Part shown: one piece after another, positions 505 to 39,440 of the stretch
Numbering within the stretch: the stretch's first letter is position 1
Layout of the letters: each line of letters starts with the position of its first letter
Assembly (NCBI GenBank): GCA_027451705.1
Contig: DAIDIT010000230.1
Span: 1-39,440 of the forward strand
Reading direction: 5' to 3'
Source of the DNA: Pseudomonadota bacterium
GTDB taxonomy: Bacteria > Myxococcota > Myxococcia > Myxococcales > JAKAPL01
Length of the DNA stretch: 39,440 nt
Position numbers and translations under genes: made by a program
Notes under the pieces: model-generated
Seen by the model: the letters and a program-made list of their open reading frames with translations, nothing else
Told to the model about the DNA's origin: nothing
The model's database searches: none

Positions 505-639
505 GCAAGGACTCGGTCGATGGCGGAGGGGACCGCGCGCCCAGACCGATTGACGCGCTCGGTGGCGGTATGGGCGTGCACATTCGATCGATCGGCGCCG
601 CTGATGGCGGCACGAGGAGGCTCGATGCGCCATTTGCCG

Positions 640-868
640 CGCCAACTGGCGGATTTAGCGGCAACGAGCCGCCCATCTGGAGGCTACAGTAGAAGCCCGC
701 CTCGACGATGCCCGGCCGCCGCGTCCCAGCGCGGTGGTGAGCGGAGCGCGAAGAGCAGGTGGTAGGCGAAGCGGCGCTGCGCTGGCGTGATGCCCGGCGC
801 GGGGTACTCCGGCTCGTCATCGATGAGCGAGCTTGCTTGGTTCTCCGAATGCGCAGTGGCGGGCGGTC
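640..868 (-). pseudogene. possible decayed coding remnant
   Basis: On the - strand a short frame reads SSLIDDEPEYPAPGITPAQ and then RRFAYHLLFALRSPP, with nearly all third codon positions G or C, like true genes here. At about position 720 the reading quality moves to another frame (GIVEAGFYCSLQMGGS), which suggests a frameshift. No ribosome site or intact start is evident. I do not recognise the family. The rest of 434-986 shows nothing I can support. Confidence 0.25.
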
Positions 869-14002: not shown

Positions 14003-14012
14003 CAAATTGTCA
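14000..14012. promoter_or_regulatory. upstream activator site 1, TGACAA-A-TTGTCA
   Basis: A perfect 6+1+6 inverted repeat. Its first three bases are the stop codon of the activator gene. Its centre is about 174 bp upstream of the predicted gspC transcription start, in the normal range for sigma-54 enhancers. A copy lies 41 bp downstream, close to four helical turns, so dimers would sit on the same DNA face. Confidence 0.65.
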
Positions 14013-14040
14013 CCCGCGGCGGCGCCGCTCGGAACGTGGA

Positions 14041-14052
14041 TGACAAATTGTC
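14041..14052. promoter_or_regulatory. upstream activator site 2, TGACAA-A-TTGTC
   Basis: Twelve-base identical copy of site 1 with the inverted repeat intact apart from the last base. Its centre is about 133 bp upstream of the predicted start. The surrounding DNA is strongly GC-rich, so two AT-centred identical palindromes stand out. Confidence 0.65.
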
Positions 14053-14153
14053 GGGGCGCCGCCCGCACGGCCGCCTGCCCCGGTGGCACAGCGGAATGGG
14101 GATTCCGGGGGAAGGGTTCGAGTTCCGTCGTTCGTCCAGGGCGAGTTGCCGCC

Positions 14154-14169
14154 TGGCACATCGCTTGCT
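14154..14169 (+). promoter_or_regulatory. sigma-54 (-24/-12) promoter of the T2SS operon
   Basis: TGGCACATCGCTTGCT matches the consensus TGGCACG-N4-TTGCW at every defined position but one (A for G at position 7). The invariant GG (14155-14156) and GC (14167-14168) are spaced correctly. Transcription should begin near 14180, only a few bases before the chosen gspC start. A second TGGCACA at 14084 lacks the -12 element. Confidence 0.8.
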
Positions 14170-14186
14170 TTCTCGTGGGGTCGACC

Positions 14187-15137
14187 GTGTCCACCGCCCT
14201 TCAACTCGGCCTCGAACGCTACTTCTGGGCCGTCACGCTCGCGTTCCTGCTCGCGGGAAGCTACCTGTCGGCCAGGACGGTCAACCTGATCGTCGCCGAG
14301 AAGATCAGGCCGCTGCCGAAGGCCAACGCGTCGCTCGCTCCGACGTCGTCGCGACAGTCGGAATCGCCTCTGCTCTCGCCCGAGGCGTTCGCGAAGACGA
14401 TGGGCATGAAGCTGCCCGAGGCGCCCGCGCCCGCCGAGGCGACCGAGGCCGAGAAGGACAAGGCACCCGATATGTCGTCGGCGCCGGTGCGGACGAGCCT
14501 CCACTCGCAGCTCCTCGGCACCGCCCTCGCGAACCGCCCCCAGTGGTCGCTCGCAACGATCCGCGACCTCAACCAGAACCAGACCTCGGTCTACATGGTC
14601 GGCGACCAGTTCATGGGGGCGACCGTCCTCTCCATCGAGGGGCCGAACGATCAGCACCAGGACACGCCGTGGGTCATCGTGATCAACGGCGGCCACCGCG
14701 AATTCATCGACAACCAGCCATCAGGCAGCGGCAGCGGCACGATGCCCGGCTACCCGGCGGCTCCGCCGGCGACGTTCCGTCCGTCGGACCTCGGCGCGGG
14801 CATCCGGCGGCTCGACGACCGCCATTTCCAGATCGAGCGGTCGACGGTCAACAACGCGCTCGCGAACCTGAACGACCTCGCGATGCAGGCCCGCATCGTG
14901 CCGTCGTTCAAGAACGGTCAGGCCAACGGATTCAAGCTCTTCAGCATCCGTCCGGACAGCCTCTACTCCAAGATCGGGATTCAGAACGGCGACGTCATCC
15001 AGCGAATCAACGGCTACGACATGAACAGCCCCGACAAGGCCCTCGAGGCCTACACGAAGCTGCGCAACGCCGGTGCGCTCGACCTCCAGATCGAGCGCGG
15101 AGGCCAGTCCTTGAGCTATCACTATGCGATCCAGTGA
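14187..15137 (+). CDS. gspC: type II secretion inner-membrane protein GspC
   Basis: GspC links the inner-membrane platform to the secretin. From the GTG at 14187 it has 316 residues: a short cytoplasmic tail, one membrane helix (residues about 13-35, YFWAVTLAFLLAGSYL), a periplasmic linker rich in Pro, Ala and Glu, a homology region that binds the secretin N-domain (SQLLGTALANRP then QNQTSVYMVGDQFMG) and a C-terminal PDZ domain (LYSKIGIQNGDVIQRINGYD). The frame is open upstream to 14007, but the sigma-54 promoter lies inside that extension, so a start after about 14180 is required. GGGG lies 6 bases before the GTG. The leader would be very short, so the exact start is uncertain. Its end overlaps gspD by 14 bases. 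Confidence 0.9.
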   Translation: MSTALQLGLERYFWAVTLAFLLAGSYLSARTVNLIVAEKIRPLPKANASLAPTSSRQSESPLLSPEAFAKTMGMKLPEAPAPAEATEAEKDKAPDMSSAPVRTSLHSQLLGTALANRPQWSLATIRDLNQNQTSVYMVGDQFMGATVLSIEGPNDQHQDTPWVIVINGGHREFIDNQPSGSGSGTMPGYPAAPPATFRPSDLGAGIRRLDDRHFQIERSTVNNALANLNDLAMQARIVPSFKNGQANGFKLFSIRPDSLYSKIGIQNGDVIQRINGYDMNSPDKALEAYTKLRNAGALDLQIERGGQSLSYHYAIQ

Positions 15138-17697
15138 GCGGGCGGCGCTGCTCGCGCTCGCGGGCGCGGCGGCCTCTGCGGTCTGGCCGGCGCCCGCGCG
15201 GGCGCAGCAACTCGGGCAGATGCTGGCGCGACCGCCGCGGACCCGGTTCTACCCACCGCCGCGGCTGCCGACGAACATCTCGCTCGATGCGAACCGGCAT
15301 CCGCCTCCCGTGCCGGGCGGAGTCGTCGAGCCGTCGAAGGACTCGCCGGGGAGCGACCGCGTCGTCAAGAAGGATCACAAGTACCAGCTCAACTTCGACA
15401 AGGTTGAGATCGCCGATCTGGTCCAGCAGGTCGCGGACATGACGGGCAAGCTGTTCATCCTTCCGGAGAACATCCACGGCCGGATCACGCTCATCGGCCC
15501 GAAGCACGGCACGGAGTTCATCACCGCCGACGAGGTGTACGCGGCGTTCCTGGCGGTCCTGGACGCGAACAACCTCGCCATCTACCCGACCGGCAAGTAC
15601 AACAAGATCGTCGAGAAGCGTGACGCGCGGCGCAAGCCGGTGCCGACCTACCTCGCGAAGGACGAGGCCTACCCCGACACCGAGCAGTACATCACCCGCC
15701 TCTTCCGGCTGAAGCACGTCGATCCGGACAGCGTGAACCCGGTCCTCCAGGAGTTGATGGGGCCGGACGGGATGGTCCGGACCTTTCAGCCCGACCTGCT
15801 CATCGTCACCGACATGTCGCTCAACATGCACCGGCTCGAGAGCATCATCGACCAGCTCGACGTTCCGGGCAGCGGCGACGAGGTACGCCTCGTCCAGGTC
15901 GTCTACGGTGCGGCATCCGATCTCGCCGACAAACTCCAGAACGTCTTCCAGGACAAGAACAAGCGGCCCGGCTCGAGCGGGCGGCCGATGCCAATCTCGG
16001 TGTTCGGGCAGGCCGCGCCGTCCCAGGGGCAGTCGGGCCCCGAGGCGGGTGTCAGCCTCACGAAGGTCATCGCCGACGAGCGGACGAACAAGCTGATCGT
16101 CGTGGCGAGCCCGACGTCGTTCGACAAGATCGAGGAGTTCGTCCGCCAACTCGACGTGCCCGTGCCGGGAGAGGGGCAGATCCACGTCGTCTACCTCGAG
16201 AACGCCGAGGCCGAGAAGCTCTCGACGACGCTCACGAACCTCATCTCTGGAATCTCCCAGGGCCGACGGATGGGGCCGCAGGCGGGCGGCCAGCAATCGG
16301 TCTTCGAAGGGCAGGTCAAGATCAGCCCGGACAAGGCGACCAATTCGCTCGTCATCGTCGCCTCTCCGAATGACTATGGGAGCTTGCTCAAGGTCATCGA
16401 GCGGCTCGACCGGCCGCAGCGGCAGGTGTTCGTCGAGGCGGTCATCATGGAGGTCAACCTCGAGAACGACCTGAGCTTCGGCGGAGCCTCCCACTACATC
16501 GCGAACCCGACGATTCCCGGCGTCAACGGCGGCCAGCCGGTTCCGATTCCGATTGGCGGCGAGCCGTTCCCGGTGGGGCAGGGCATCAACTCGCTCTTCG
16601 GCGTCGCCGGCCTCGCCTCGCTGGGTGGCTTCCTGACCGGACTTCAGGGGCCTGCCAACGCGGCCATCGGCCAGGCGCTGGGATTCTCGCTCCCCTCGTT
16701 CTCGATTCTGGTTCAGGCGCTCGAAACCAATTCCGATGCCAACGTCATCTCGACGCCGCACATCTTGACGACCAACAACGAGGAGGCGCAGATCACCGTC
16801 GGCCAGAACGTTCCGTTCCAATCGGGATTCAGCTTCGGACTCGGTGGGCTGGGCGGACTCGGGATGATGGGTGGCCTGGGCGGGCTCGGTGGTCTGGGAG
16901 GGGTGGGTGGCCTCGGCGCGCTCGGTGGCGTCGGAGGCGTCGGAGGCCTCGGGTCTCTCGGCACGGCAGGACTTGGCGGCCTCGGAGCACTCGGCGGCCT
17001 CGGCGGCATGGGCGGCCTTGGCGCCATGGGCGGCCTTGGCGGGCTCGGAGGCGGCTTCCCCATGGGCCAGATCCAGCGGCAAAACGTCGAGCTCAAGCTC
17101 AAGCTCAAGCCGCAGATCAACGAGGGCGACTACGTCCGGCTGACGGTCGACGAGTCGACCGAGGAGATCGCGAGCACCGACCCGATCCTCGGCCCGACGA
17201 CCTCGAAGCGCGCGGCGAAGACCGTCATCGTCGCCAAGGATCAGGAGACGGTCGTCATCGGTGGTCTGATGCAGGATCGGGTGATCAAGTCGTCCAACAA
17301 GACTCCGATCCTCGGGGACATCCCCATCCTGGGATGGCTCTTCCGCTACGACACGACCAAGAAGGAGAAGGTGAACCTTCTTCTGTTCCTCACGCCGTAC
17401 ATCATCCGCGACCAGTCCGACTTCCGGAAGATCTTCGAGCGCAAGATGAAGGAGCGGCAGGAGTTCGTCGAGCGCTTCTACGGCGAATCCGCGGTCTACA
17501 CCGTGCCCATCGACTACGACCGCAAGGAGGGGCCGCTCGGGGCGATGACCGTGACCATCCGGAAGGAGCAGAGCAAGATCGAGAACGGAGGGACGGGGGA
17601 GGGAGCCGGCGAACGGCCGATTGCCCCGAGGGCGCACCGACATCCGGGCGCAGCAGTCGAGCCACCGCCTCCAGCGCCGGCTCCGAGCGGCGGTTAG
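15124..17697 (+). CDS. gspD: type II secretion secretin GspD, with a long Gly-Leu insertion
   Basis: The outer-membrane channel, 857 residues, longer than the usual 650-750. A signal peptide ends at ARAQQ (about residue 30). The N0 domain begins YQLNFDKVEIADLVQQVADM, and three N1-N3 repeats follow (ITRLFRLKHVDPDSVNPVLQ, VRLVQVVYGAASDLADKLQN, IHVVYLENAEAEKLSTTLTN). The secretin core runs VFVEAVIMEVNLENDLSFGG to ILGWLFRYDTTKKEKVNLLL. Residues 572-644 are almost wholly Gly and Leu with some Met, Ala and Val, placed between VGQNVPFQSG and QRQNVELKLKLKPQINEGD, where normal secretins have a short loop. The C-terminal tail is Pro-rich; an S-domain for a pilotin is not obvious, and no gspS is in the window. 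Confidence 0.95.
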   Translation: MRSSERAALLALAGAAASAVWPAPARAQQLGQMLARPPRTRFYPPPRLPTNISLDANRHPPPVPGGVVEPSKDSPGSDRVVKKDHKYQLNFDKVEIADLVQQVADMTGKLFILPENIHGRITLIGPKHGTEFITADEVYAAFLAVLDANNLAIYPTGKYNKIVEKRDARRKPVPTYLAKDEAYPDTEQYITRLFRLKHVDPDSVNPVLQELMGPDGMVRTFQPDLLIVTDMSLNMHRLESIIDQLDVPGSGDEVRLVQVVYGAASDLADKLQNVFQDKNKRPGSSGRPMPISVFGQAAPSQGQSGPEAGVSLTKVIADERTNKLIVVASPTSFDKIEEFVRQLDVPVPGEGQIHVVYLENAEAEKLSTTLTNLISGISQGRRMGPQAGGQQSVFEGQVKISPDKATNSLVIVASPNDYGSLLKVIERLDRPQRQVFVEAVIMEVNLENDLSFGGASHYIANPTIPGVNGGQPVPIPIGGEPFPVGQGINSLFGVAGLASLGGFLTGLQGPANAAIGQALGFSLPSFSILVQALETNSDANVISTPHILTTNNEEAQITVGQNVPFQSGFSFGLGGLGGLGMMGGLGGLGGLGGVGGLGALGGVGGVGGLGSLGTAGLGGLGALGGLGGMGGLGAMGGLGGLGGGFPMGQIQRQNVELKLKLKPQINEGDYVRLTVDESTEEIASTDPILGPTTSKRAAKTVIVAKDQETVVIGGLMQDRVIKSSNKTPILGDIPILGWLFRYDTTKKEKVNLLLFLTPYIIRDQSDFRKIFERKMKERQEFVERFYGESAVYTVPIDYDRKEGPLGAMTVTIRKEQSKIENGGTGEGAGERPIAPRAHRHPGAAVEPPPPAPAPSGG
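16837..17055 (+). repeat. Gly-Leu-coding low-complexity repeat inside gspD
   Basis: About 73 codons of the type GGL, GGM, GAL and GGV in imperfect 9-base steps (ggcctcggc-like). The same frame is kept throughout. It encodes the insertion in the secretin domain described under gspD. Such repeats can change length by slippage in multiples of 9 or 18 bases. Confidence 0.9.
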
Positions 17698-17739
17698 ACA
17701 GAGAGCTTCACGGCGCAGCCCCGCGGAGATCGAGCGAAC

Positions 17740-19578
17740 ATGGCCGGATCGATCCAGACGGAAGCAATCGCAGCGAGCGATCGGGGCGCCTCGGCCGCCG
17801 AGCGGCTGCCGGCCAGACCGGACCGCGAGGCGACCGTTCAGGTTGCGCACGGTCCGGCCTTCCTCTGCGGCCGTCCGCTCGGTCAAATCCTGTTGGAGAC
17901 GGCCGGGCTGGCCCAGGAAAAATTGGACGAGGCCCTGACGCAGCAGGCGGAGAAGGGCGGTCGCCTCGGCGAGATCCTGGTCGGCCTGAAGGCGTTGTCG
18001 GAGGAGCAGGTGCTGGCGGCGCTGGCCGTCCAACTCGACCTCCCGTTCTCGGAGCGGCTCGCGATCGACGCGATCACGCCCGAGTTGATCCGGCAGTTGC
18101 CGATCAACTTCGCGAAGCAGGCCAGGATTCTCCCGTTGCGCCGCGATGGGGACGCGATCGTCCTCGCGACTGGGGATCCGCTCGACACCGCGCTCCTCGA
18201 CGAGGCGCGGATGCTCCTCGAGGCCCCGGTCTCGCCGCACGTCGCCCCTCCGCAGGCGATCCTCGACGCCATCAACCAGGTCTACGACCGCGCGGCGAAC
18301 GAGGCCGAGCGGCTCGTGGACAACATGGCCGGCGAGGATCTCGCCAGCCTGGCTCACGAGTTGGAGGAGCCCAAGGACCTCCTCGACGCGACCGACGACG
18401 AGGCGCCGATCATCAAGCTGGTCAACTCGCTCCTCTTCCAGGCCGCCAAGGAGAGGGCGTCGGACATCCACATCGAGCCGTTCGAGCGGGAGATCTCGGT
18501 CCGTTTCCGCGTCGACGGCGTCCTCCGGGAGAAGATCAAGCCACCCAAGCGGTTCCAGAAGGCCATCGCCTCGCGCGTCAAGATCATGGGCAACCTGAAC
18601 ATCGCCGAGACGCGTTTGCCGCAGGACGGCCGCATCCGGGTCAAACTCGCCGGCCGCGACATCGACATCCGTCTCTCGACGGTGCCGACATCCCACGGCG
18701 AACGGATCGTCATGCGTCTGCTCGACAAGAGCGCCGTGCTCCTCGACCTCGAGCAACTCGGCTTCTCGCCCGACCAGCTGTCGATCATGGACTCCCTCAT
18801 CCACCGCAGCCACGGGATCATCTTGGTGACCGGGCCGACGGGGTCTGGAAAGAGCACGACGCTCTACGCCGCGCTCTCGAAGATCAATACCCCGGAGCTG
18901 AACATCCTGACGGTGGAGGACCCGGTCGAGATCCAGATCAAGGGGATCGGGCAGGTCCAGGTGAATCCCAAGATCGACCTGACCTTCGCCTCGGGGCTCC
19001 GGAGCTTCCTGCGCCAGGACCCGGACGTGATCATGGTCGGCGAAATCCGAGACCTCGAGACGGCCGAAATCGCGATCCAGGCCTCGCTGACCGGCCACCT
19101 GGTCTTCTCGACGGTCCACACCAACGACGCCCCCGGGGCCGTCACCCGGCTCGTCGACATGGGCGTCGAACCGTTTCTCGTGGCGTCGTCGCTGATGGGT
19201 AGCCTGGCGCAAAGGCTCTTGCGCGTGCTCTGCAAGGAGTGCCGCGAGGCGTACGTTCCGACCGCCGAGGCGCTCGCAGAACTGTCGCTCAGCCCCGACT
19301 CGCTCCGCGAGGCGGGCGTCGATCACCTATACCGGGAGAAGGGGTGCTCGGCCTGCAACGGCACGGGCTACAAGGGACGCGTCGGCATCTACGAGATGAT
19401 GATGGTCACCGACGAAGTCCGCCAGCTCATCCTGCGCAAGGTCGACTCGGGCACCATCAAGAAGACCGCCATCGCCCAGGGCATGCGGACCCTCATCCAG
19501 GACGGCTCGAGCAAGGTGTTGCGGGGCATCACCTCGATCTCCGAGCTCCTGTCGGTGACGCAGGAGGACATCGTCTAG
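17740..19578 (+). CDS. gspE: type II secretion ATPase GspE
   Basis: Cytoplasmic motor that powers pseudopilus assembly, 612 residues. The N-terminal part (about 45-205) is an N1E/MshEN-type domain (RPLGQILLETAGLAQEKLDE, GRLGEILVGLKALSEEQVL), which in relatives binds GspL or cyclic-di-GMP. The ATPase has ASDIHIEPFE, Walker A GPTGSGKSTT, the Asp box LTVEDPVE, Walker B RQDPDVIMVGEIRD and the His box LVFSTVHTNDA. The four-cysteine zinc element is present as CKEC and CSAC. All catalytic motifs are intact. The gene lies 42 bases after gspD, and its stop is 2 bases before the gspF start. The first 40 residues are variable, and a start further downstream cannot be ruled out. Confidence 0.96.
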   Translation: MAGSIQTEAIAASDRGASAAERLPARPDREATVQVAHGPAFLCGRPLGQILLETAGLAQEKLDEALTQQAEKGGRLGEILVGLKALSEEQVLAALAVQLDLPFSERLAIDAITPELIRQLPINFAKQARILPLRRDGDAIVLATGDPLDTALLDEARMLLEAPVSPHVAPPQAILDAINQVYDRAANEAERLVDNMAGEDLASLAHELEEPKDLLDATDDEAPIIKLVNSLLFQAAKERASDIHIEPFEREISVRFRVDGVLREKIKPPKRFQKAIASRVKIMGNLNIAETRLPQDGRIRVKLAGRDIDIRLSTVPTSHGERIVMRLLDKSAVLLDLEQLGFSPDQLSIMDSLIHRSHGIILVTGPTGSGKSTTLYAALSKINTPELNILTVEDPVEIQIKGIGQVQVNPKIDLTFASGLRSFLRQDPDVIMVGEIRDLETAEIAIQASLTGHLVFSTVHTNDAPGAVTRLVDMGVEPFLVASSLMGSLAQRLLRVLCKECREAYVPTAEALAELSLSPDSLREAGVDHLYREKGCSACNGTGYKGRVGIYEMMMVTDEVRQLILRKVDSGTIKKTAIAQGMRTLIQDGSSKVLRGITSISELLSVTQEDIV

Positions 19579-19580
19579 CG

Positions 19581-20813
19581 ATGCCCGTCTTCGAGTACAA
19601 GGGGCTCAGCGAGGCGGGCAAGTCGGTCACCGGCATCCGCGAGGCGGACAGCCCGAAGGGCCTGCGTGCGCTGCTGCGCAAGGAGGGGATCTTCCTCTCG
19701 GAGGTGACGGGCGAGAAGCAGAAGGAGGAGGCCGCCGCCAAGGGCGAGATCGACGTCAAGCGGCTCGTCGGCGGGCGCATCAGTTCCGACGACATCGCGG
19801 TCATGACCCGGCAACTCGCGACGCTGATCGGCGCCGGCATCCCGCTCGTCGAGGCGCTGACCGCTCTGATCGAGCAGGTCGACCACGAGCGGCTCAAGCG
19901 GGTGGTCTCGGCCGTCAAGCAGCGGGTCAATGAAGGATCGACGCTCGCCGACGCCATGGGGCAGTTTCCCAAGGTGTTCAACACCCTCTTCGTGAACATG
20001 ATCCGCGCCGGCGAACACTCCGGGGCGCTGCACGTGGTGCTGATCCGCCTCGCGGACTTCACCGAGGCCCAGGCCCGCCTGCGCTCGAAAGTCTGGGGCA
20101 CGATGGCCTACCCGATCATCATGGTCGTCATCGGCACGGTCATCATGGGAATCCTGATGACCGTGGTCGTCCCCAAGGTGACGGCGATGTTCCAGGACAT
20201 GAAGATGGTCCTGCCGCTGCCGACGCGGATCCTGATCTTCGTCTCGAACACGGCTCGCGACTACTGGTACCTGCTCCTGGCGGGGATGGTGCTCTCGATC
20301 TGGGGCTTCCTCGCCTACATCCGCAAGGGCAAGGGCCGCGCCTGGTGGGACCGCACCACGCTGCGGATGCCGGTCTTCGGGAAGATCATCCGGATGCTCG
20401 CCATCGCCCGCTTCTCGCGCACGCTGTCGACGCTCCTCAAGAGCGGCGTCCCGCTCCTGACCTCGATGGACATCGTCAAGGCGATCCTGACCAACACCGT
20501 CCTTTCCGGCGTGATCGAGCAGTCTCGGGAGGCCATCAAGGAGGGCCAGAGCATCGCCGCTCCGCTCCGCCGCTCCGGCGAGTTCCCGCCGATGGTCTAC
20601 CACATGGTCGCGATCGGCGAGCGGTCGGGACAGCTCGAGGAGATGCTGCTCAACGTGGCAAACGCATACGACGCGCAGGTCGAGACGCGCATGACGGCGC
20701 TCACCTCGCTGCTCGAGCCGGTGATGATCGTCGCGATGGGTGGCGTGGTCGCCTTCATCGTGATGTCGATCCTGCTGCCGATCCTCCAGATGAACACCAT
20801 GTCGGCACATTGA
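19581..20813 (+). CDS. gspF: type II secretion platform protein GspF
   Basis: Polytopic inner-membrane platform protein, 410 residues, standard length. It begins MPVFEYKGLSEAGKSVTGI, the typical GspF opening. Two homologous cytoplasmic domains carry the family motif (MTRQLATLIGAGIPLVEAL near residue 75; IARFSRTLSTLLKSGVPLLT near 275). Membrane helices are visible at about residues 172-197, 222-245 and 378-403. The start codon follows the gspE stop by two bases, which fixes it despite a much longer open frame upstream. It couples the ATPase to the growing pseudopilus. Confidence 0.96.
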   Translation: MPVFEYKGLSEAGKSVTGIREADSPKGLRALLRKEGIFLSEVTGEKQKEEAAAKGEIDVKRLVGGRISSDDIAVMTRQLATLIGAGIPLVEALTALIEQVDHERLKRVVSAVKQRVNEGSTLADAMGQFPKVFNTLFVNMIRAGEHSGALHVVLIRLADFTEAQARLRSKVWGTMAYPIIMVVIGTVIMGILMTVVVPKVTAMFQDMKMVLPLPTRILIFVSNTARDYWYLLLAGMVLSIWGFLAYIRKGKGRAWWDRTTLRMPVFGKIIRMLAIARFSRTLSTLLKSGVPLLTSMDIVKAILTNTVLSGVIEQSREAIKEGQSIAAPLRRSGEFPPMVYHMVAIGERSGQLEEMLLNVANAYDAQVETRMTALTSLLEPVMIVAMGGVVAFIVMSILLPILQMNTMSAH

Positions 20814-20827
20814 GGAGCGCGGACGCG

Positions 20828-20941
20828 ATGCAAGAGACGGCATTCGAGCGACGGCTGCGGGCCGCGGGCGCGTTCGCGGTGGTTGCGGTCGCGGGCGCGC
20901 TGGTCGCGCTCGGTCTCTGGTTGGAGGTCCCGTGGCATTGA
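20828..20941 (+). CDS. 37-residue single-pass membrane micro-protein between gspF and gspG
   Basis: A short frame lies in the gap between gspF and gspG. GAGGAG lies about 10 bases before its ATG, overlapping the gspF stop. The product starts MQETAFERRLRAAGAFAVVA, continues through a hydrophobic stretch (about residues 13-31, Ala/Val/Leu) and ends LWLEVPWH. Basic residues before the helix predict the N-terminus inside. Most other gaps in the operon are zero to a few bases, so a 150-base gap filled by a frame with a good ribosome site argues that it is real. I know of no canonical T2SS subunit of this size at this position. It might assist GspF or pseudopilin insertion; that is speculation. Confidence 0.55.
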   Translation: MQETAFERRLRAAGAFAVVAVAGALVALGLWLEVPWH

Positions 20942-20963
20942 GGCAACGAAAGGAGCAGACGTC

Positions 20964-21368
20964 GTGAGAGAGAGGCAGTGGCGAGGATCGGCCGCCCGCG
21001 GCATGACCCTCATCGAGATCATGGTGGTCGTGGCCATCCTCGGGATGATCGCCGCGGTGGTGGGAGTTGCGGTCATGGGCCGCTTCCAGGAAGCCAAGGT
21101 CCAGACCGCGCAGCTCGACATCAAGGGCTTCGGTGACGGGCTGCGGCTCTTCAAGCTCAAGCACAGCCGCTTCCCGACGACGGCCGAGGGGCTGGCGGCC
21201 CTCTACCAGGAAGGGTTCCTCGAGGGCGAGCAGAAGAAGGACCCGTGGGGCAACGACTACGTCTACGTCCAGCCGGGGCAGAAGCACCCGGACACCTACG
21301 ACATCATGTCCTACGGAGCCGACGGCAAGCCCGGCGGCGACGGCGAGGACGCCGACATCACCAACTGA
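20964..21368 (+). CDS. gspG: major pseudopilin GspG
   Basis: Main subunit of the T2SS pseudopilus, 134 residues as precursor. The start is GTG with AAAGGAG eight bases upstream. The prepilin leader ends in RG and is cleaved before MTLIEIMVVVAILGMIAAVV, with the conserved Glu at +5. Met replaces the more usual Phe at +1, which is common in GspG. The C-terminal part has the GspG-specific calcium-binding pattern (DPWGNDYVYVQPG, SYGADGKPGGDGEDADI). It needs a prepilin peptidase (GspO/PilD), which is not encoded in this window. Confidence 0.96.
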   Translation: MRERQWRGSAARGMTLIEIMVVVAILGMIAAVVGVAVMGRFQEAKVQTAQLDIKGFGDGLRLFKLKHSRFPTTAEGLAALYQEGFLEGEQKKDPWGNDYVYVQPGQKHPDTYDIMSYGADGKPGGDGEDADITN

Positions 21369-21374
21369 GGTCGC

Positions 21375-22013
21375 ATGAAGGACTCCGGCTTCACGCTGCT
21401 CGAGATCGTCATCAGCCTCGCGCTGCTCGTGATGGCGCTCTCCGTGGCGCTGCCGAGCTTCGAATCGGTGACCGGCGCGCGCATGCGCTCCGCGGCCGGC
21501 CAGCTCGCGGGATCGCTTCGCGCGCTCTACGACCACGCGGCGCTCTCGGGACAGACCTGCCGGATGGCCTTCGACCTCGACGCGCGCACCTACTGGCCGG
21601 AGTGCGCACGCGGGGCCGCACGGATTTCGTCCGTCCCCGAAGAGAGTCGCGACGGCAAGCGTTACGTCGACACGGAGGCCCAGCAGGAGGCACAGGAGCG
21701 GCTCGAGGACCTGCAGCGCGACAACCCGATCGAGGCGAAGCTCGAAGCCAAGACGCCGTTCGCCAAGTACCGGGATGAGGACGTGCAGCGCGTCCAGCTT
21801 CCCGCCGACGTGAACTTCGCGTGGATCTGGACCCCGCACCAGACGCAGAAATACACGGCGGGCGACGCCTACGTGTACTTCTTCCCGCAGGGCAACGCGG
21901 AGCGGGCCTACGTGGCCCTCGCGCACGGCGACGATTCGCTGACCGTGGCGGTGAGCCCACTGACGGGCAAGATCCGGGTCGACCCCGGAGAGGACGAGAT
22001 CCCCAAGCAATGA
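21375..22013 (+). CDS. gspH: minor pseudopilin GspH
   Basis: A 212-residue prepilin-like protein with a five-residue leader (MKDSG) cleaved before FTLLEIVISLALLVMALSV, with Glu at +5. The globular part (about 40-212) is mostly charged, with an inserted helical stretch (DTEAQQEAQERLEDLQRDN) and a beta-rich end. By position after gspG and by its leader it is GspH, although the sequence beyond the N-terminal helix is poorly conserved in this family. The stop overlaps the gspI start as ATGA, so the two are coupled. Confidence 0.85.
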   Translation: MKDSGFTLLEIVISLALLVMALSVALPSFESVTGARMRSAAGQLAGSLRALYDHAALSGQTCRMAFDLDARTYWPECARGAARISSVPEESRDGKRYVDTEAQQEAQERLEDLQRDNPIEAKLEAKTPFAKYRDEDVQRVQLPADVNFAWIWTPHQTQKYTAGDAYVYFFPQGNAERAYVALAHGDDSLTVAVSPLTGKIRVDPGEDEIPKQ

Positions 22014-22801
22014 GGCGCTCGGGCTTCACGTTGCTCGAAGTGACCGTCGCGCTCGCGATCCTTGCGCTCGGGCTCGTCGCCATCGTCGACATCAACGCCG
22101 GAGCGACACGGCTGCACGAGGCCAGTTCCCACCTGACGATGGCGACGTTGCTCGCCCGCAGCAAGATGATCGACCTCGAGGAGAAGCTGAACGAGGAGGG
22201 CTTCTCCGACTTCGACATGGAGATCGACGGGACGTTCGAGGAGGAAAAGCACCCGGAGATCCGCTGGAAGGCCCAGGTTCTCAAGCCCGACCTGACGAAG
22301 TCGGTCGAGCAGATCACCTCGCTCGTCACCGGCGCACTCGGCGGCGGCCCCAACGCGGCCGCCGGCGCAGCGGGAGGCGGCGCGCTCGCGAACAGCCCGC
22401 TCGCGTCGATGCTCGGGCAGTCCTCGTTGCTCTCGGGGATGACTTTGCCCGACGGCCTCCAGTCGCCCGCGGGGTCGTCCTCGGATGCTCCCGCAAATCC
22501 AACATCGAGTGGTCTCGGGGGCCTGCTCGGGTCCGCGGCCAGCGGGCTGATCCAATCGCAGGTACAGACGCTCGTCACTCAGATCCAGCAGGGGGTCCGC
22601 GAGATCCGACTCACGGTGTACTGGATGGACGGCGCGAAGGAGGACAGCTTCACGGTCACGACGCACCTCGTGGTCCTCCAGCCGACCGGTCCGGGCGCGA
22701 GCGCTACCGGTGCCGCGCCCAACGGGCAGTCGACGAACCCGATGGGCTCGGGTACACCGGGCCAGCCCGGAAATAGCTTCATGCCCGGAGGGATTCATTG
22801 A
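22010..22801 (+). CDS. gspI: minor pseudopilin GspI, enlarged
   Basis: Precursor with the leader MRRSG cleaved before FTLLEVTVALAILALGLVAI, with Glu at +5. The fold is that of GspI (ATLLARSKMIDLEE, then VREIRLTVYWMDGAKEDSFT), but at 263 residues it is about twice the usual size. The extra length is a Gly/Ala/Ser/Pro-rich insertion at about residues 108-180 and a low-complexity tail (about 230-263). GspI sits with GspJ and GspK at the pseudopilus tip, so the insertion would be exposed in the periplasm. Start and stop overlap those of its neighbours by four bases. Confidence 0.88.
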   Translation: MRRSGFTLLEVTVALAILALGLVAIVDINAGATRLHEASSHLTMATLLARSKMIDLEEKLNEEGFSDFDMEIDGTFEEEKHPEIRWKAQVLKPDLTKSVEQITSLVTGALGGGPNAAAGAAGGGALANSPLASMLGQSSLLSGMTLPDGLQSPAGSSSDAPANPTSSGLGGLLGSAASGLIQSQVQTLVTQIQQGVREIRLTVYWMDGAKEDSFTVTTHLVVLQPTGPGASATGAAPNGQSTNPMGSGTPGQPGNSFMPGGIH

Positions 22802-23496
22802 GGGCGGCGCCTCCGATACCTCGGGCCGCGGAGATTGGTGGCTTCACGCTCCTCGAGGCGCTGATATCGCTCGCCATCATGGCGCTGATGGGCGGGCTCA
22901 TCTGGAGCAGCTTCGGGCCGACCTACGCGCTCAAGGAGACCGTCGAGGCCCAGGCAGATCGAGACATCGAGATCCGAGGGGCGGTCAACCGCATGGCGCG
23001 CGAGATCTCGATGGCCTTCCTCTCGAACGACTACGACAAGGTGCGCTACCGGCAAATGATCACGCTGTTCGACGGGGAGCACAACGCCGGTGATCACGAT
23101 CGGCTGACGTTCACTTCGCTTTCCCACCAGCGTCTATACGAGAACGCCTTCGAGTCGGACCAGTCGCTCATCGCGTACCGGGTCGCCGAGGATCCGAACA
23201 AGCCCGGTCAGCTCGATCTGATGCGCCGCGAGAAGACGGTCCTCGACGACGAGCCCGACCACGGCGGCGACGAGGAAGTCCTCTGCGAGGACATACAGGG
23301 ACTGCGGCTCCGCTACTGGGATCAGGTGAAGAAGGAGTGGGTCGAGGACTGGAACAGCCAGGACACCGAGCGGCTCAACACCCTGCCGTTCCGCGTGCAG
23401 ATCACCCTGCTCGTGGGCGAGCCCGGCTCGGTGCCGACGCCTTACACGACCCAGGCGTGGATCTTCCTGCCCCAGCCGCTGGATCGGACCCAATGA
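22798..23496 (+). CDS. gspJ: minor pseudopilin GspJ
   Basis: A 232-residue pseudopilin of the tip complex. The start is TTG at 22798, overlapping the gspI stop, with GGAGGG about five bases upstream. The leader is longer than in its neighbours (about 14 residues, ending IGG) and is followed by FTLLEALISLAIMALMGGLI with Glu at +5. The body contains the GspJ pattern (EIRGAVNRMAREISMAFLS, LCEDIQGLRLRYWDQVKKEW, LPFRVQITLLVGEPG). The stop overlaps the gspK start as ATGA. Confidence 0.9.
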   Translation: MRAAPPIPRAAEIGGFTLLEALISLAIMALMGGLIWSSFGPTYALKETVEAQADRDIEIRGAVNRMAREISMAFLSNDYDKVRYRQMITLFDGEHNAGDHDRLTFTSLSHQRLYENAFESDQSLIAYRVAEDPNKPGQLDLMRREKTVLDDEPDHGGDEEVLCEDIQGLRLRYWDQVKKEWVEDWNSQDTERLNTLPFRVQITLLVGEPGSVPTPYTTQAWIFLPQPLDRTQ

Positions 23497-24893
23497 ACTG
23501 CGCCCCTTCCAGAGCTCGCGCCGGACGCCGGCGCGGGGTCGCTCTCCTGATGGTCATCACGGCCATCGCGATCCTGACCGCGGTGGCCGTCGAGTTCTCC
23601 TACCGCAGCCGCGTCGAGGCGCGGCTCGCCGCCAACGCTCGTGACCAGCTCCGCGCCTACTATCTGGCGCGCTCGGCGGTCAGCCTGACGCGGCTCGTCC
23701 TCCACTTCCAGCGGCAGGTCGACGCGATCCAGATCCCGAACATCGCGGGCATGCTCGGAGGCCTCCTGGGCGGCGCGGGGGGAATTCCCGGCATGCCCGC
23801 GGGCGGCATGCCGCAACTCCCGGGCGCCCTCTCGGGGGCGGCCGGCGGTTCGATGCACATCCGGCTCTGGGACGTCATCCCGGTCGACAGCGGGACGCTC
23901 CAGCTCTTCATCGGCCCGGCGGCGGATTCCCTCGACGCGGACTTCCACCACGCGGACAAGGGCCCACCGCCTCCGCCGGAGCCGCTCGGCCTGCAAGGCT
24001 TCGGCGGCCATGCGTACCGGCTGAACGCCCCGAACCGCGCCTTCGGCGACTTCGAGGGCAGCTTCCATGCCGAGGTCCACGACGAAGAGTCCAAGATCAA
24101 CGTGAACGCGGTCAACCAGCTCTCGGCCCTCGCCGCCGCGACGTCGATGGAGCTGCTGACGCTGATGCACTGGAAGGACCAGAAGTGGGACTTCCTCTTC
24201 CAGGACGACGACGACCCCCAACACCTCAAGGTGTCGCGCGAGGACGTGTTGATGAACCTCCACGACTGGATTGACGCCGACAACTCGACGTCGACCTTCA
24301 ACCCGGTGGCGCTCACCAACTTCTCCGACCCCTTCGCGACCGGTTTCGGGGACGAGGACGAGTTCTACCAGCGGCTGGACCCGCGCTACCGCGCGAAGAA
24401 CGCGCTGGACGACACCGTGGACGAACTGCACATGATCCACGGCTTCACGGACGAGTTCATGGCCGCCTTCGGCGACCGGTTCACGGTCTATTCGGCACCG
24501 ACCGCGCTGCTCAACGTGAACACCGACGACCCGGGCCAGCAGCTCGTGAACATCATCGTGGCGCTCGACACGACGCGCGATCCCTCGATCGTCCAGGAGC
24601 TCCTCGGAAGCCCGATGCTCCTCCAGACGGTCCTCGCCGAGGTCCAGATGCTCCGCTCCTTTTCGTTCCTCGGCCTCTCGGTTCAGAGCTTTCTCGCGGT
24701 CCTGACCGCGAACAAGCTGCCGGTGAACCCGTTCCTGTCGACGCCCAACAGTCCGAACGCATTTCTGGGCGACACGAGCCAGACGTTCACGATCAAGGCG
24801 ACCGGGGAAGTGGGCGACGTCGAGAGCCGGATCACCTCGGTTGTTCGCTACGACGACAACCTCGGCAAGCTGCTTTACTGGCGGGAGGAGTAG
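23493..24893 (+). CDS. gspK: minor pseudopilin GspK
   Basis: Largest pseudopilin and cap of the tip, 466 residues. After the basic leader (RAGRRRG) comes VALLMVITAIAILTAVAVEF; as is normal for GspK, the +5 Glu is absent. The large alpha-helical head is present (EVHDEESKINVNAVNQLSAL, NLHDWIDADNSTSTFNPV, VYSAPTALLNVNTDDPGQQL). Residues about 84-118 are a Gly/Met/Pro-rich insertion (MLGGLLGGAGGIPGMPAGG) after the first helix. The length is greater than the common 310-340. The start overlaps the gspJ stop by four bases. Confidence 0.93.
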   Translation: MNCAPSRARAGRRRGVALLMVITAIAILTAVAVEFSYRSRVEARLAANARDQLRAYYLARSAVSLTRLVLHFQRQVDAIQIPNIAGMLGGLLGGAGGIPGMPAGGMPQLPGALSGAAGGSMHIRLWDVIPVDSGTLQLFIGPAADSLDADFHHADKGPPPPPEPLGLQGFGGHAYRLNAPNRAFGDFEGSFHAEVHDEESKINVNAVNQLSALAAATSMELLTLMHWKDQKWDFLFQDDDDPQHLKVSREDVLMNLHDWIDADNSTSTFNPVALTNFSDPFATGFGDEDEFYQRLDPRYRAKNALDDTVDELHMIHGFTDEFMAAFGDRFTVYSAPTALLNVNTDDPGQQLVNIIVALDTTRDPSIVQELLGSPMLLQTVLAEVQMLRSFSFLGLSVQSFLAVLTANKLPVNPFLSTPNSPNAFLGDTSQTFTIKATGEVGDVESRITSVVRYDDNLGKLLYWREE

Positions 24894-24899
24894 GCGGCC

Positions 24900-26498
24900 A
24901 TGGCCATGCGGATCTGGGGCATCGACTTGGGGACGCACGCGGTCAAGGTGTGCGCGCTCCAGTCCCGATTCCGCGGCTACGCCGTGGAGCGAATCGACTC
25001 GGCTCCGGTTCGGCGCGAAGGCGAGGCCTCGCTCCTCGCCGCGCAGAAGGCGGCCCTCGCGCCGCTCGTCGGCGCTCCTCATCCGCGGCCCGACGCAGTG
25101 GTCGTGGCGCTCCCCGGAGCCACGGCGGCGACGCACTCGGTCGTGCTTCCGGCCGTCGACGGCAAGCGGCTCGAGCAGGCGCTGGCTTTCGAGATCGAAG
25201 GGCTCATCCCGTTCGAGCTTTCGGACGTCTCCTACGACCACCAGGCGATCGAACAGGCGGACGGAAAGACGAAGTTGCTCGTCGGCGTCACCCGCCGTCC
25301 CGCCCTCGACGAGCTTCTCGCCGCATTGCGCGAGCTCGGCGCGGATCCACGGACCGTCACGCTGGCGCCGCTCGCGCTGCCGAGCCTCCTCCAGGGGGAC
25401 GGCCAAGTCCTGGGCCTGCGGGGCAAGAAGGCGCGCGCCGAAGCCGCCGCCCGCGAGGCGGAAGCCGGCCTCGAGCTGATCGTGGACATCGGGCACGATC
25501 GCACCTGCGCGGCCGTCCGAGAGGGAAGCAAGGTCATCTTCGCGCGGGCCTTCGACGGAGGCGGGGCGGGCCTGACGCGCGCCGTCGCCCGCGATCTCGG
25601 CCTGGATTTCGCGGCGGCCGAAGCGCTCAAGCACGAGCGGGGTTCGTTGCTCGAGGGAGCGGATCCCGCGCTCGTCGTGCCGCTCGCCCGAGGCCTGGAA
25701 CCGATTGTCCGAGAGCTGCGGCAGATCCTCAAGCTGGTGGCCTCCCGCTCGCGACGGCCCCTGCAGAAGATCTGGTTGGGCGGCGGCGGGAGCAAGCTAC
25801 CGGGCCTCGGGGCGCTTCTCGAGCGCGAGTTCGGAGGGACCGCGGCGCCGCTCGTGCTCCCATCGCTCGGTGGAGAGGTTCCAGGTGCGCTCGAACCCTC
25901 CACCGCGCTGGCTGCTGCGCTGGCGCTCTCGGCGCATGGCCGCATGCGGTTCAACCTCCGGCGCGGGGATCAGAGCTTCCAGGGCGACTTCGCGAAGATG
26001 CGCGGCAAGCTCGGTCAGGTCGGAGCGCTGGCGGCCTCGCTGCTCTTTCTCGCCGGGGTGTGGGGCTACACCCAGATCCACGTCCTCGCCGTCCGGGAGA
26101 AGGCGATCGACGAGGCGGTCTGCGCGTCCACCAAGCAGGCGATCGGGAAGTGCCTGCGGGACATCAACGTCGCGCGCTCGAGCCTGATGGGCGGGGCGGC
26201 CTCGGGAGCGACCATTCCCCGCCTCTCGGCGCTCGACCTCCTCACCGAGACGACGAACCGCCTCGACATCGAGGGCGCGAAGATCACCGAGATGGACGTC
26301 GGCCTCCAGCAGGTCGATCTGCACGGCGAGGCGGACAGCTTCGAGACGGTCGACAAGGTCGTCGGCGCCCTCAAGGGCTGGCGCTGCTTCCAGGACGTGC
26401 AGCGGGGCCGGGTGCAGAAGGAGAGGGACGGCAAGACCGTGGAGTTCAACCTCGAAGCGCGCAACGGCTGTGCGGGCATAGGCGGTGACGGCGCATGA
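24900..26498 (+). CDS. gspL: type II secretion protein GspL, PilM-like
   Basis: A 532-residue bitopic protein that recruits GspE to the membrane. The cytoplasmic half is an actin-like ATPase fold of the PilM type (IWGIDLGTHAVKVCALQ, LELIVDIGHDRTCAAV, KIWLGGGGSKLPGLGALLE). A membrane helix follows at about residues 374-393 (GALAASLLFLAGVWGY). The periplasmic part is a ferredoxin-like domain (ITEMDVGLQQVDLHGEADS). The nucleotide-binding features are more complete than in enterobacterial GspL. GGAGGAG lies about eight bases before the ATG; a second ATG is two codons later. The stop overlaps the gspM start by four bases. Confidence 0.92.
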   Translation: MAMRIWGIDLGTHAVKVCALQSRFRGYAVERIDSAPVRREGEASLLAAQKAALAPLVGAPHPRPDAVVVALPGATAATHSVVLPAVDGKRLEQALAFEIEGLIPFELSDVSYDHQAIEQADGKTKLLVGVTRRPALDELLAALRELGADPRTVTLAPLALPSLLQGDGQVLGLRGKKARAEAAAREAEAGLELIVDIGHDRTCAAVREGSKVIFARAFDGGGAGLTRAVARDLGLDFAAAEALKHERGSLLEGADPALVVPLARGLEPIVRELRQILKLVASRSRRPLQKIWLGGGGSKLPGLGALLEREFGGTAAPLVLPSLGGEVPGALEPSTALAAALALSAHGRMRFNLRRGDQSFQGDFAKMRGKLGQVGALAASLLFLAGVWGYTQIHVLAVREKAIDEAVCASTKQAIGKCLRDINVARSSLMGGAASGATIPRLSALDLLTETTNRLDIEGAKITEMDVGLQQVDLHGEADSFETVDKVVGALKGWRCFQDVQRGRVQKERDGKTVEFNLEARNGCAGIGGDGA

Positions 26499-27046
26499 AC
26501 CGGATCCGGGACGCCCTGGCCGCCGCCGAGCAGTACCTCGCCCGCCTGTCGGCGCGCGAGCGGCTGCTCGTCGGCGCGGCGACGGCCACGTTTCTAGCCG
26601 CCGTCATCGCGGTCGGAACGCTCGCCTTCTCGCGGGCGATCCGGCGGCGGGAGGAGACGATCGAGACGAAGTCGAAGGCGCTCGCCGACATCGGCGCTCT
26701 CGCCTCGACGTACCGCGAGCGCGACATGCGGCGTCGCCGGCTCGAGGACCGGCTTCGCACGCCGGTCAAGCTGTTCACGTTCATCGACGACATCTCGAAG
26801 CAGCAGGGGGTGGAGATCGGCGACATGCAGGACCGCGGCAGCACGACCGGGTCCGACAAGATCAGCGAGTCGGTCGTCGAGTTCGACCTTTCGAAGCTGA
26901 CCCTCGACAAACTGACCGCGTTCCTCAACGCGATCGAGCACGGCCCGCACCTCGTCAAGGTGAAGAAGATCCGGGTCCGCACGCGGCTGGACGATCCCAA
27001 TTCGGTCGACGTTTCGCTCACCGTCGCCACCTACTCGATGGGCTGA
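26495..27046 (+). CDS. gspM: type II secretion protein GspM
   Basis: A 183-residue partner of GspL. A short cytoplasmic helix (LARLSARERLLVGA) is followed by one membrane helix (about residues 24-45), a coiled-coil stretch with heavy charge (about 48-85, RRREETIETKSKALADIG) and a periplasmic ferredoxin-like domain (VEFDLSKLTLDKLTAFLNAI, VDVSLTVATYSMG). Such proteins are identified as much by position as by sequence; between gspL and gspN the call is safe. The start ATG overlaps the gspL stop. Confidence 0.88.
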   Translation: MNRIRDALAAAEQYLARLSARERLLVGAATATFLAAVIAVGTLAFSRAIRRREETIETKSKALADIGALASTYRERDMRRRRLEDRLRTPVKLFTFIDDISKQQGVEIGDMQDRGSTTGSDKISESVVEFDLSKLTLDKLTAFLNAIEHGPHLVKVKKIRVRTRLDDPNSVDVSLTVATYSMG

Positions 27047-27049
27047 CCC

Positions 27050-28003
27050 GTGAAGGCGCCGAAGAAAGAGACGAAGGAGCGGATCAAGCGCGCGCTGGCC
27101 TGGTCGGCGGCCTCGACGGCGGCGACGCTGCTCTTCGTGTACCTGACCTTCCCTTGGAACGCGGTGCGGCAGCGGATCGAGGACGGACTGTCGTCGTCCC
27201 TGCGCGGACCGGACGGCTCGACTTTCGTCGTGAGCGTGGGCGAGCTGAAACCGAGTTGGTTCACCGGCGTCGTCGTGAAGCGACTGGTGATCGTCAGCCG
27301 CGACCCGGCGGCCCCGCCGGACGTTGCCGCGTCGACGCTCGTCGTGCCCGAACTGGACGCGCGGCTCGAGCTGTGGCCGCTGCTGCGCCGGACTCCGACG
27401 ATCGACTTCACGGCGAAGCTGACGGCCGGCGAGGTCGTCGGGCAGGTGCGGCTCGGCAAGAAGGACGAAGGGCTCACGCTGAACGTCTCGCGGGTCGACC
27501 TGGGCAAGGCGCACGACCTCCTTACGGTCGCCGGACGGCTGATCGGGGCAGACCTCGGCGCGCTGGACCTCGGTGGCGCCTTCACGGCGCGGGCGGCGCT
27601 GGCCTTCCGTGGCGGCGACGTCACGACGCTCGAGGGGACGCTCCAGGCTGGGCTCGATCAGGCGGTCATCAAGGGCGGCAAGGTGGGGGAATACGACCTG
27701 CCGCGGGTGGCGCTCGGCAAGGTGGACCTCGGAGTGCTGGCGGGCGGCGGCAAGCTGGACGTGCGCAAGCTGACGATCCAGGGCGACGACGTCGACGTGG
27801 GCAGCGACGGGCTTGCGCTGACGCTGAACCGAAACTTCGGCTTCAGCATGCCCCACGGCAAGCTGCGCGTGCACTTCGGGGCGGATCTCCTCAAGCGGAT
27901 CCCGTACCTGGGCCTCGGCTTGTCGGCACTTCACCCGCCCGACCGCGACGGCAGCTACAGCCTCTCGCTCTCCGGCACCCTCCGGAACCCGAGGTTCATG
28001 TAG
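27050..28003 (+). CDS. gspN: type II secretion protein GspN
   Basis: A 317-residue protein (GTG start) with one N-terminal membrane helix (about residues 15-36, ALAWSAASTAATLLFVYLTF) and a long beta-rich periplasmic part made of repeated strands (LDLGGAFTARAALAF, GTLQAGLDQAVIKGG, LGVLAGGGKLDVRKLTIQGD), the AsmA-like architecture of deltaproteobacterial-type GspN. GspN is absent from many T2SS and its precise role is unclear. It closes the operon: the next gene is 76 bases on, after a hairpin. Confidence 0.88.
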   Translation: MKAPKKETKERIKRALAWSAASTAATLLFVYLTFPWNAVRQRIEDGLSSSLRGPDGSTFVVSVGELKPSWFTGVVVKRLVIVSRDPAAPPDVAASTLVVPELDARLELWPLLRRTPTIDFTAKLTAGEVVGQVRLGKKDEGLTLNVSRVDLGKAHDLLTVAGRLIGADLGALDLGGAFTARAALAFRGGDVTTLEGTLQAGLDQAVIKGGKVGEYDLPRVALGKVDLGVLAGGGKLDVRKLTIQGDDVDVGSDGLALTLNRNFGFSMPHGKLRVHFGADLLKRIPYLGLGLSALHPPDRDGSYSLSLSGTLRNPRFM

Positions 28004-39275: not shown

Positions 39276-39440
39276 GCGGAGGCGGACGGCTTTGCCGGCC
39301 GACGGGCGGAGGCCGACGGAGGAGGCCGAAGCATCGGAGCGGAGGCGGACGGCTTTGCCGGCCGACGGGCGGAGGCCGACGGAGGAGGCCGAAGCATCGG
39401 AGCGGAGGCGGACGGCTTTGCCGGCCGACGGGCGGAGGCC
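39276..39440. repeat. 63-bp tandem repeat running off the right edge
   Basis: GCGGAGGCGGACGGCTTTGC begins at 39276, 39339 and 39402, exactly 63 bases apart, and the copies visible are identical across the repeated part. The window ends in the third copy. On the + strand one frame is an open 21-residue repeat (RRTALPADGRRPTEEAEASE). With no start seen it may be intergenic satellite DNA or the edge of a repetitive gene. The gap 39224-39275 shows nothing else. Confidence 0.85.

Follow-up and report, generated by a model that had tools for sequence, protein, structure and literature searches.

How a secretin can be watertight and yet let entire folded proteins through has still to be settled, and structures resolve the tips of secretin gates poorly. 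For the type II secretin XcpD, the text of PMC10550240 describes a central gate of residues 466-496, bounded by two pivot glycines and carrying T477 and S480 at its tip; cross-linking of T477 and S480 shows that the gate tips meet in the lumen, the gate must move for secretion and seals once cross-linked, and a pivot mutant of the gate is non-secreting yet bile-salt sensitive. In the literature on secretins that we examined, the central gate projects into the lumen, and membrane contact and the apical parts belong to other segments of the protein. Here we consider the gspD gene in a window of 39,440 nucleotides (the whole stretch of DNA analysed; contig DAIDIT010000230.1, assembly GCA_027451705.1) from a myxobacterial genome (3.59 Mb, 267 contigs, completeness 69.7%). 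The tip of the corresponding gate appears to have grown by a 73-residue Gly-Leu insert, and the explanation that we prefer, while giving it about an even chance of being right, is that such tips, flexible and uncharged, seal the channel from within as a soft hydrophobic mass, with selection maintaining their composition.

Compared with the central gates of described type II secretins (XcpQ/XcpD 5wln, PulD 6hcg and E. coli K-12 GspD 5wq7), the window gate has the same position in the protein, the same flanking strands and the same first pivot glycine, but it is 97 residues long against 28-31, its tip is Gly/aliphatic and uncharged, and its second pivot is Glu. Vibrio-type GspDs likewise have an optional extra loop that raises watertightness (PMC10550240), although this top, or cap, gate belongs to the apical region, a different segment from the window insert. 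The Gate 1 loop of phage f1 pIV, disordered and aimed at the pore centre, is similar, though with 15 unresolved residues according to the text of PMC8563730, against 73 extra ones here. The literature on secretin gate diversity that we examined, PMC10550240 included, dwells on the apical top gate. The main text of that XcpD paper contains neither 'Myxococc' nor 'deltaproteobacteria', and the same holds for a paper on pilotins (PMC3542185); no title or abstract on an expanded myxobacterial central gate appeared in the literature searched, a search of listings and abstract beginnings that had most subscription papers outside its scope and so does not establish absence from print.

Placement of the insert in the secretin

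The gspD gene (15124..17697, plus strand) encodes 857 residues without an internal stop. Its product matches TIGR02517 at 529.9 bits, above the curated cut-off of 351.35, shows in order the domains PF21305 (GspD N0), PF03958 (Secretin_N, in three stretches) and PF00263 (Secretin), and has PulD (6hcg, E 3.8e-26) as its top structure match in Foldseek; by the tests made, the protein is GspD, with one pivot glycine replaced. The insert, residues 572-644 (16837..17055, plus strand), is in frame with gspD and lies where the phmmer alignment breaks, splitting the Pfam Secretin match into an N-terminal part at PF00263 positions 1-35 and a C-terminal part at 51-169. The 73-residue Gly-Leu repeat that the initial annotation saw in the beta-domain of this secretin is therefore really there.

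When the protein is aligned by phmmer with 5wln, the alignment halts at chain residue 441, window residue 569, and restarts at chain 448, window residue 642, which leaves window 570-641 opposite chain 442-447. We take the published XcpD number to be the 5wln chain number plus 34, because chain 432-462 is also 31 residues long and starts and ends on matching glycines, and with this offset the insert would replace XcpD residues of about 476-481, T477 and S480 among them. Its location as the expanded tip of the GspD central gate loop is, on this alignment, well supported. The loop would run from the pivot G560 to the second pivot position at E656, 97 residues in all (16801..17091, plus strand), as judged from alignment to 5wln and other solved GspDs together with the XcpD gate limits. 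An AlphaFold2 model of the C-module, of low overall confidence, predicts a beta strand into the gate at residues 555-566 (16786..16821) and one out of it at 650-665 (17071..17118), both on the plus strand, with a similar outcome in the other AlphaFold2 model; the Foldseek search confirmed the GspD family, and the position of the insert is not resolvable from it. At the first pivot, 115 of the 116 gates compared below have Gly. At the second (17089..17091, plus strand), where the window has Glu656 in place of the usual Gly, Glu or Asp occurs in 92 of the 116, and the GspDs from outside the phylum have Gly; loss of this second 'conserved' pivot may accompany the longer gate.

This placement sharpens one idea of the initial annotation and tells against another. 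The 'short loop in known secretins' into which the insertion had been put corresponds to the central gate, 28-31 residues in the solved GspDs, and the suggested gate becomes, by alignment to XcpD, the tip of the central gate loop. A site at the channel wall or mouth, or a membrane-contact collar, does not fit a loop that points into the lumen, and on the aligned position we reject both the collar and the apical mouth. The apical region of the window protein spans 65 residues between boundary motifs that are not identical to the published ones, short of the 80 or more by which Vibrio-type, top-gated GspDs are recognised, and gates do not lengthen along with the apical region (r 0.09, among the 97 of 118 gates that were measurable). 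A Gly/Leu-rich stretch, NSLFGVAGLASLGGFLTGLQGP, is also present in the apical region, at 16504-16698.

Gate length and composition among relatives

A GspD match was found in all 60 relatives searched, and a GspD family match in 191 of 195 genomes of the phylum. From 133 loci we obtained 118 distinct gates, or 116 after removal of L043, which is E. coli, and L120, which has unknown bases in its gate; 114 of these come from Myxococcota genomes, and the other two (L038 and L039) from metagenome-assembled genomes with the bare titles 'Deltaproteobacteria bacterium' and 'bacterium'. Sampling was not random: it drew on best matches, our own pick of 60 listed places and 8 contig hits, and some Myxococcota families lie outside it (for example f13, f15, f16 and f20-f25).

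Gates in this sample range from 32 to 97 residues with a median of 53, they reach at least 40 in 111 of 116, and the window's family has the longest usable ones, at 97, 94 and 90. All 11 non-myxobacterial GspDs fall at 28-34 residues: the solved proteins read in alignment (5wq7, 5wln, 6i1x, 6hcg, 5w68 and 5zdh) have gates of 28-31 and six alphaproteobacterial plasmid GspDs gates of 30-34, with K-12 counted once (28 residues; L043 agrees with 5wq7) and 5w68 and 5zdh sharing one gate sequence. The expectation that length can vary thus holds between species, and the alignment of relatives gave a range of lengths with no ordinary short loop among the close ones. The PilQ-like and Tad-like secretins of the window genome have gates of about 22 residues, read by eye; judged from sequence, then, the long gate is specific to GspD among the secretins of this genome.

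The window insert consists of 43 Gly, 17 Leu, 4 Met, 4 Ala, 3 Val, 1 Ser and 1 Thr, which makes it 59% Gly with no Pro and no charge. Base-shuffled copies carry on average 15.6 charged or stop codons and never fewer than 7 in 2,000 shuffles, where the real insert has 0, so its composition is not a matter of chance. Among the 116 gates, 110 have tips free of Asp, Glu, Lys, Arg and His, charged residues make up 8 of 4,494 tip residues, and Gly (31%), Leu (17%), Ser (14%) and Ala (10%) are the main residues; a 112-gate table in which L120 is still counted gives 105 without charge. Outside the phylum, at least one charged residue is present in 6 of the 7 tips that were measured identically, the solved structures not being among the 7. 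Inserts of the same kind occur in a separate genome of the same genus and in one of the same family, which makes an artefact of a single assembly unlikely.

A quick maximum-likelihood tree of 67 gspD rows, with the gate columns excluded, places the window family beside its sister, family f6; in the six f6 rows the gates span 42-58 residues, with a Gly+Leu share of 0.13-0.46. On this tree gates of at least 60 residues need 7 changes, so long gates have recurred, and a Gly+Leu share of at least 0.65 needs 5, counts that are blind to gain versus loss on a tree whose base is unsure, with two long branches joined at the outgroup.

All this might still be neutral growth of low-complexity sequence, in which Gly-rich units build up at a flexible, tolerant gate tip through slippage in GC-rich DNA, without any selection for them. 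Gate length does vary, and the gate is rich in insertions and deletions: when the window protein is aligned with the same-genus copy (L006), 13 gap columns fall within the gate, as against 11 over the 481 aligned residues that precede it and 0 in what follows. The insert is also richer in GC than the window as a whole (77% against 70%), and the gate DNA of L006 holds 43 repeated 12-mers where synonymous shuffles average 21.7 (P 0.008), which we take as a sign of recent repeat gain in that lineage. The window copy itself shows no such excess over its synonymous versions (longest exact repeat 17, against null means of 14.7 and 15.2; P 0.22 and 0.28), nor is there an excess over synonymous shuffles in L007, L131, L127 or L041. 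The residues of the gate are meanwhile kept: 54 of 69 aligned ones are identical between window and L006, and at 28 of these 54 the codon differs, as it does at 121 of 393 identical residues before the gate and 42 of 141 after it. Recent slippage in the window copy was therefore rejected, and at the level of the lineage slippage stands through L006; the 'repetitive DNA' of the initial annotation, in the same way, fails for the window copy and holds for its congener. Also against neutral growth, charge is nearly absent from 116 gates across the divergence of up to 31 families, where shuffled inserts would average 15.6 charged or stop codons, and long gates recur on the tree. We think neutral growth unlikely, and read these sequences as evidence that selection acts above all on composition (Gly plus aliphatic residues with near-zero charge) and less on the precise sequence or on length; length would drift, and at least in the lineage of L006 slippage would provide some of the variation.

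The gate as a possible soft seal

If the secretin is a 15-mer, as we presume (GspDs being double-walled barrels of 14-15 subunits), fifteen insert loops would point into the inner barrel and its lumen. These loops are uncharged and Gly-rich, and roughly one residue in three is aliphatic; they would thus stay flexible and stick weakly together, forming a soft hydrophobic plug where other secretins have an iris of short loops. Such a plug might block small molecules and part around folded cargo of varied size, its composition maintained by selection while its length drifts through in-frame gains and losses. We infer the oligomer, the disorder in the assembled channel, the cohesion and the sealing role. 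The initial estimate of over a thousand residues in the ring stands if there are fifteen subunits (15 x 73 = 1,095), and these would fill about 106,000 cubic ångströms, a slab of 17-21 Å in a lumen of 80-90 Å, as estimated from residue volumes; the inner barrel of phage pIV is 90 Å wide in the text of PMC8563730. By a similar estimate the half-contour of each loop, about 131 Å, reaches beyond the channel axis. The hydrophobic domains of elastin offer a partial analogy, since they too are Gly-rich, aliphatic and uncharged, and the insert has 16 overlapping XGGZG motifs (X and Z being L, V, M or A). The disorder and self-association described for elastin-type sequences are put down to their high Pro and Gly (PMC5703643); the insert has 59% Gly without Pro, and its loops are tethered at both ends within a channel, so the likeness is partial.

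The regular spacing admits a different idea, namely that the Gly-rich triplets are ordered, folding as polyglycine II-like helices into a rigid collar or lid. Polyglycine II folds are a possible form of such triplets, and in the window insert 20 of 23 spacings between Leu, Val or Met are exactly 3, with a period-3 power above that of residue shuffles (P 0.001), as is also true of L006 (P 0.006). Against this, period 3 reaches P < 0.01 in just 9 of 112 gates, gaps of 3, 5 and 5 residues between window and L006 break the triplet register, and both AlphaFold2 models are without structure at the insert. An ordered collar or lid strikes us as very improbable, and a triplet helix as a conserved fold, which should keep its register unbroken among relatives, was rejected.

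Some of the evidence weighs against the soft plug, and should be set out together. The AlphaFold2 runs, two of them on 9 sequences as single chains, reached a mean predicted local distance difference test (pLDDT) score of 54 and 49, and models this poor make the unstructured insert seen in both weak evidence of disorder, while the triplet spacing could itself mean order. The sampling outside Myxococcota covers Pseudomonadota only. Gly is very low in some relatives (0 of 23 insert residues in L100, for example), which shows that a gate can work without Gly-Leu itself as long as its charge is low. The alignment of gate repeats between window and L006 is uncertain, and this inflates the figure for codon differences in the gate. 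The repeat excess in L006 belongs here as well. L100 comes from a single-contig genome (G022) with two gspD copies, of which L100 has a gate of 42 residues and L101 one of 52.

It is tempting to look for a reason in the cargo, and to see in the gate an adaptation to hydrophobic or lipid-tailed proteins: the type II secretion system would export MYXO-CTERM proteins to the surface and an uncharged gate would ease their passage. MYXO-CTERM proteins, for which lipidation is predicted, depend on this system (PMC11980579). There are at least 6 matches in the window genome and matches in at least 171 of 195 genomes of the phylum, all counts being lower bounds, with up to 37 candidates scored per genome. 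Four of the genomes without a MYXO-CTERM match went unlisted, and G188, G189 and G191, being absent from the listing, are assumed to be among these four. Our tests covered 110 of the 118 gates, in 58 genera and 21 families. At genus level gate length goes with MYXO-CTERM number (rho 0.43, p 0.00065, 58 genera), and phylogenetic regression gives p 0.039 per Mb and 0.088 for the raw number; but these are several tests without correction, the family level gives p 0.12-0.14 (21 families) and independent pairs are not significant. Single cases speak against the link too: f6 combines intermediate gates with few or no matches among the candidates scored, G071 has at least 16 matches and a gate of 32 residues, and the lipoprotein pullulanase of Klebsiella also travels through a type II system, according to the text of PMC11980579, yet the PulD gate is short, at 28 residues. 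The link is weak after phylogenetic control, and we regard this adaptation as improbable, if still a lead. The single-contig f6 genomes G013, G034, G025 and G022 gave no match among up to 37 candidates scored, which runs against the statement, in the same text, that all examined Myxococcota genera carry MYXO-CTERM.

Genomic setting and meaning

By gene matches and order, gspD sits inside a full gsp operon from C to N, all on the plus strand. Upstream lies gspC (14007..15137, start codon uncertain; NF041515 GspC_delta, 283.9 bits, above cut-off). Downstream follow gspE, the secretion ATPase (17740..19578; Pfam T2SSE, 491.3 bits, and MshEN), gspF (19575..20813; TIGR02120, 483.9 bits, above cut-off), gspG, the major pseudopilin (20883..21368; TIGR01710, 111.3 bits, above cut-off), and then H-I-J-K-L-M-N in this order (21375..28003). 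GspN exceeds the cut-off of TIGR04411, and C, D, E, F, G and N are clear; the matches of H, I, J, K, L and M are weak and below curated cut-offs, so that these assignments rest partly on gene order. An open frame of 1,439 residues on the minus strand (15007-19326), opposite gspD and gspE, probably reflects high GC together with codon bias. Elsewhere in the window, long degenerate tandem repeats occupy 1177-1810 (period 21, and period 273 with 1.9 copies), and a perfect tandem repeat of period 63 (2.6 copies) lies at the right edge, 39276-39440.

Stated at its boldest, our proposal is that in myxobacterial type II secretins a charge-free, disordered mesh of Gly and aliphatic residues, its length tuned by lineage, replaces the short central gate, and that it acts as a cohesive, deformable barrier, in principle like elastin or the nuclear pore, tight yet able to pass folded and even lipid-tailed surface proteins; this we put forward tentatively, and think somewhat doubtful in its full form. 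Myxobacteria offer a natural series of nearly charge-free gates, from 32 to 97 residues, and with it a direct test of gate length and hydrophobicity against leakiness and cargo range. If the soft plug is the right explanation, what closes this bacterial channel would be a soft, cohesive mesh and not an iris of short loops.
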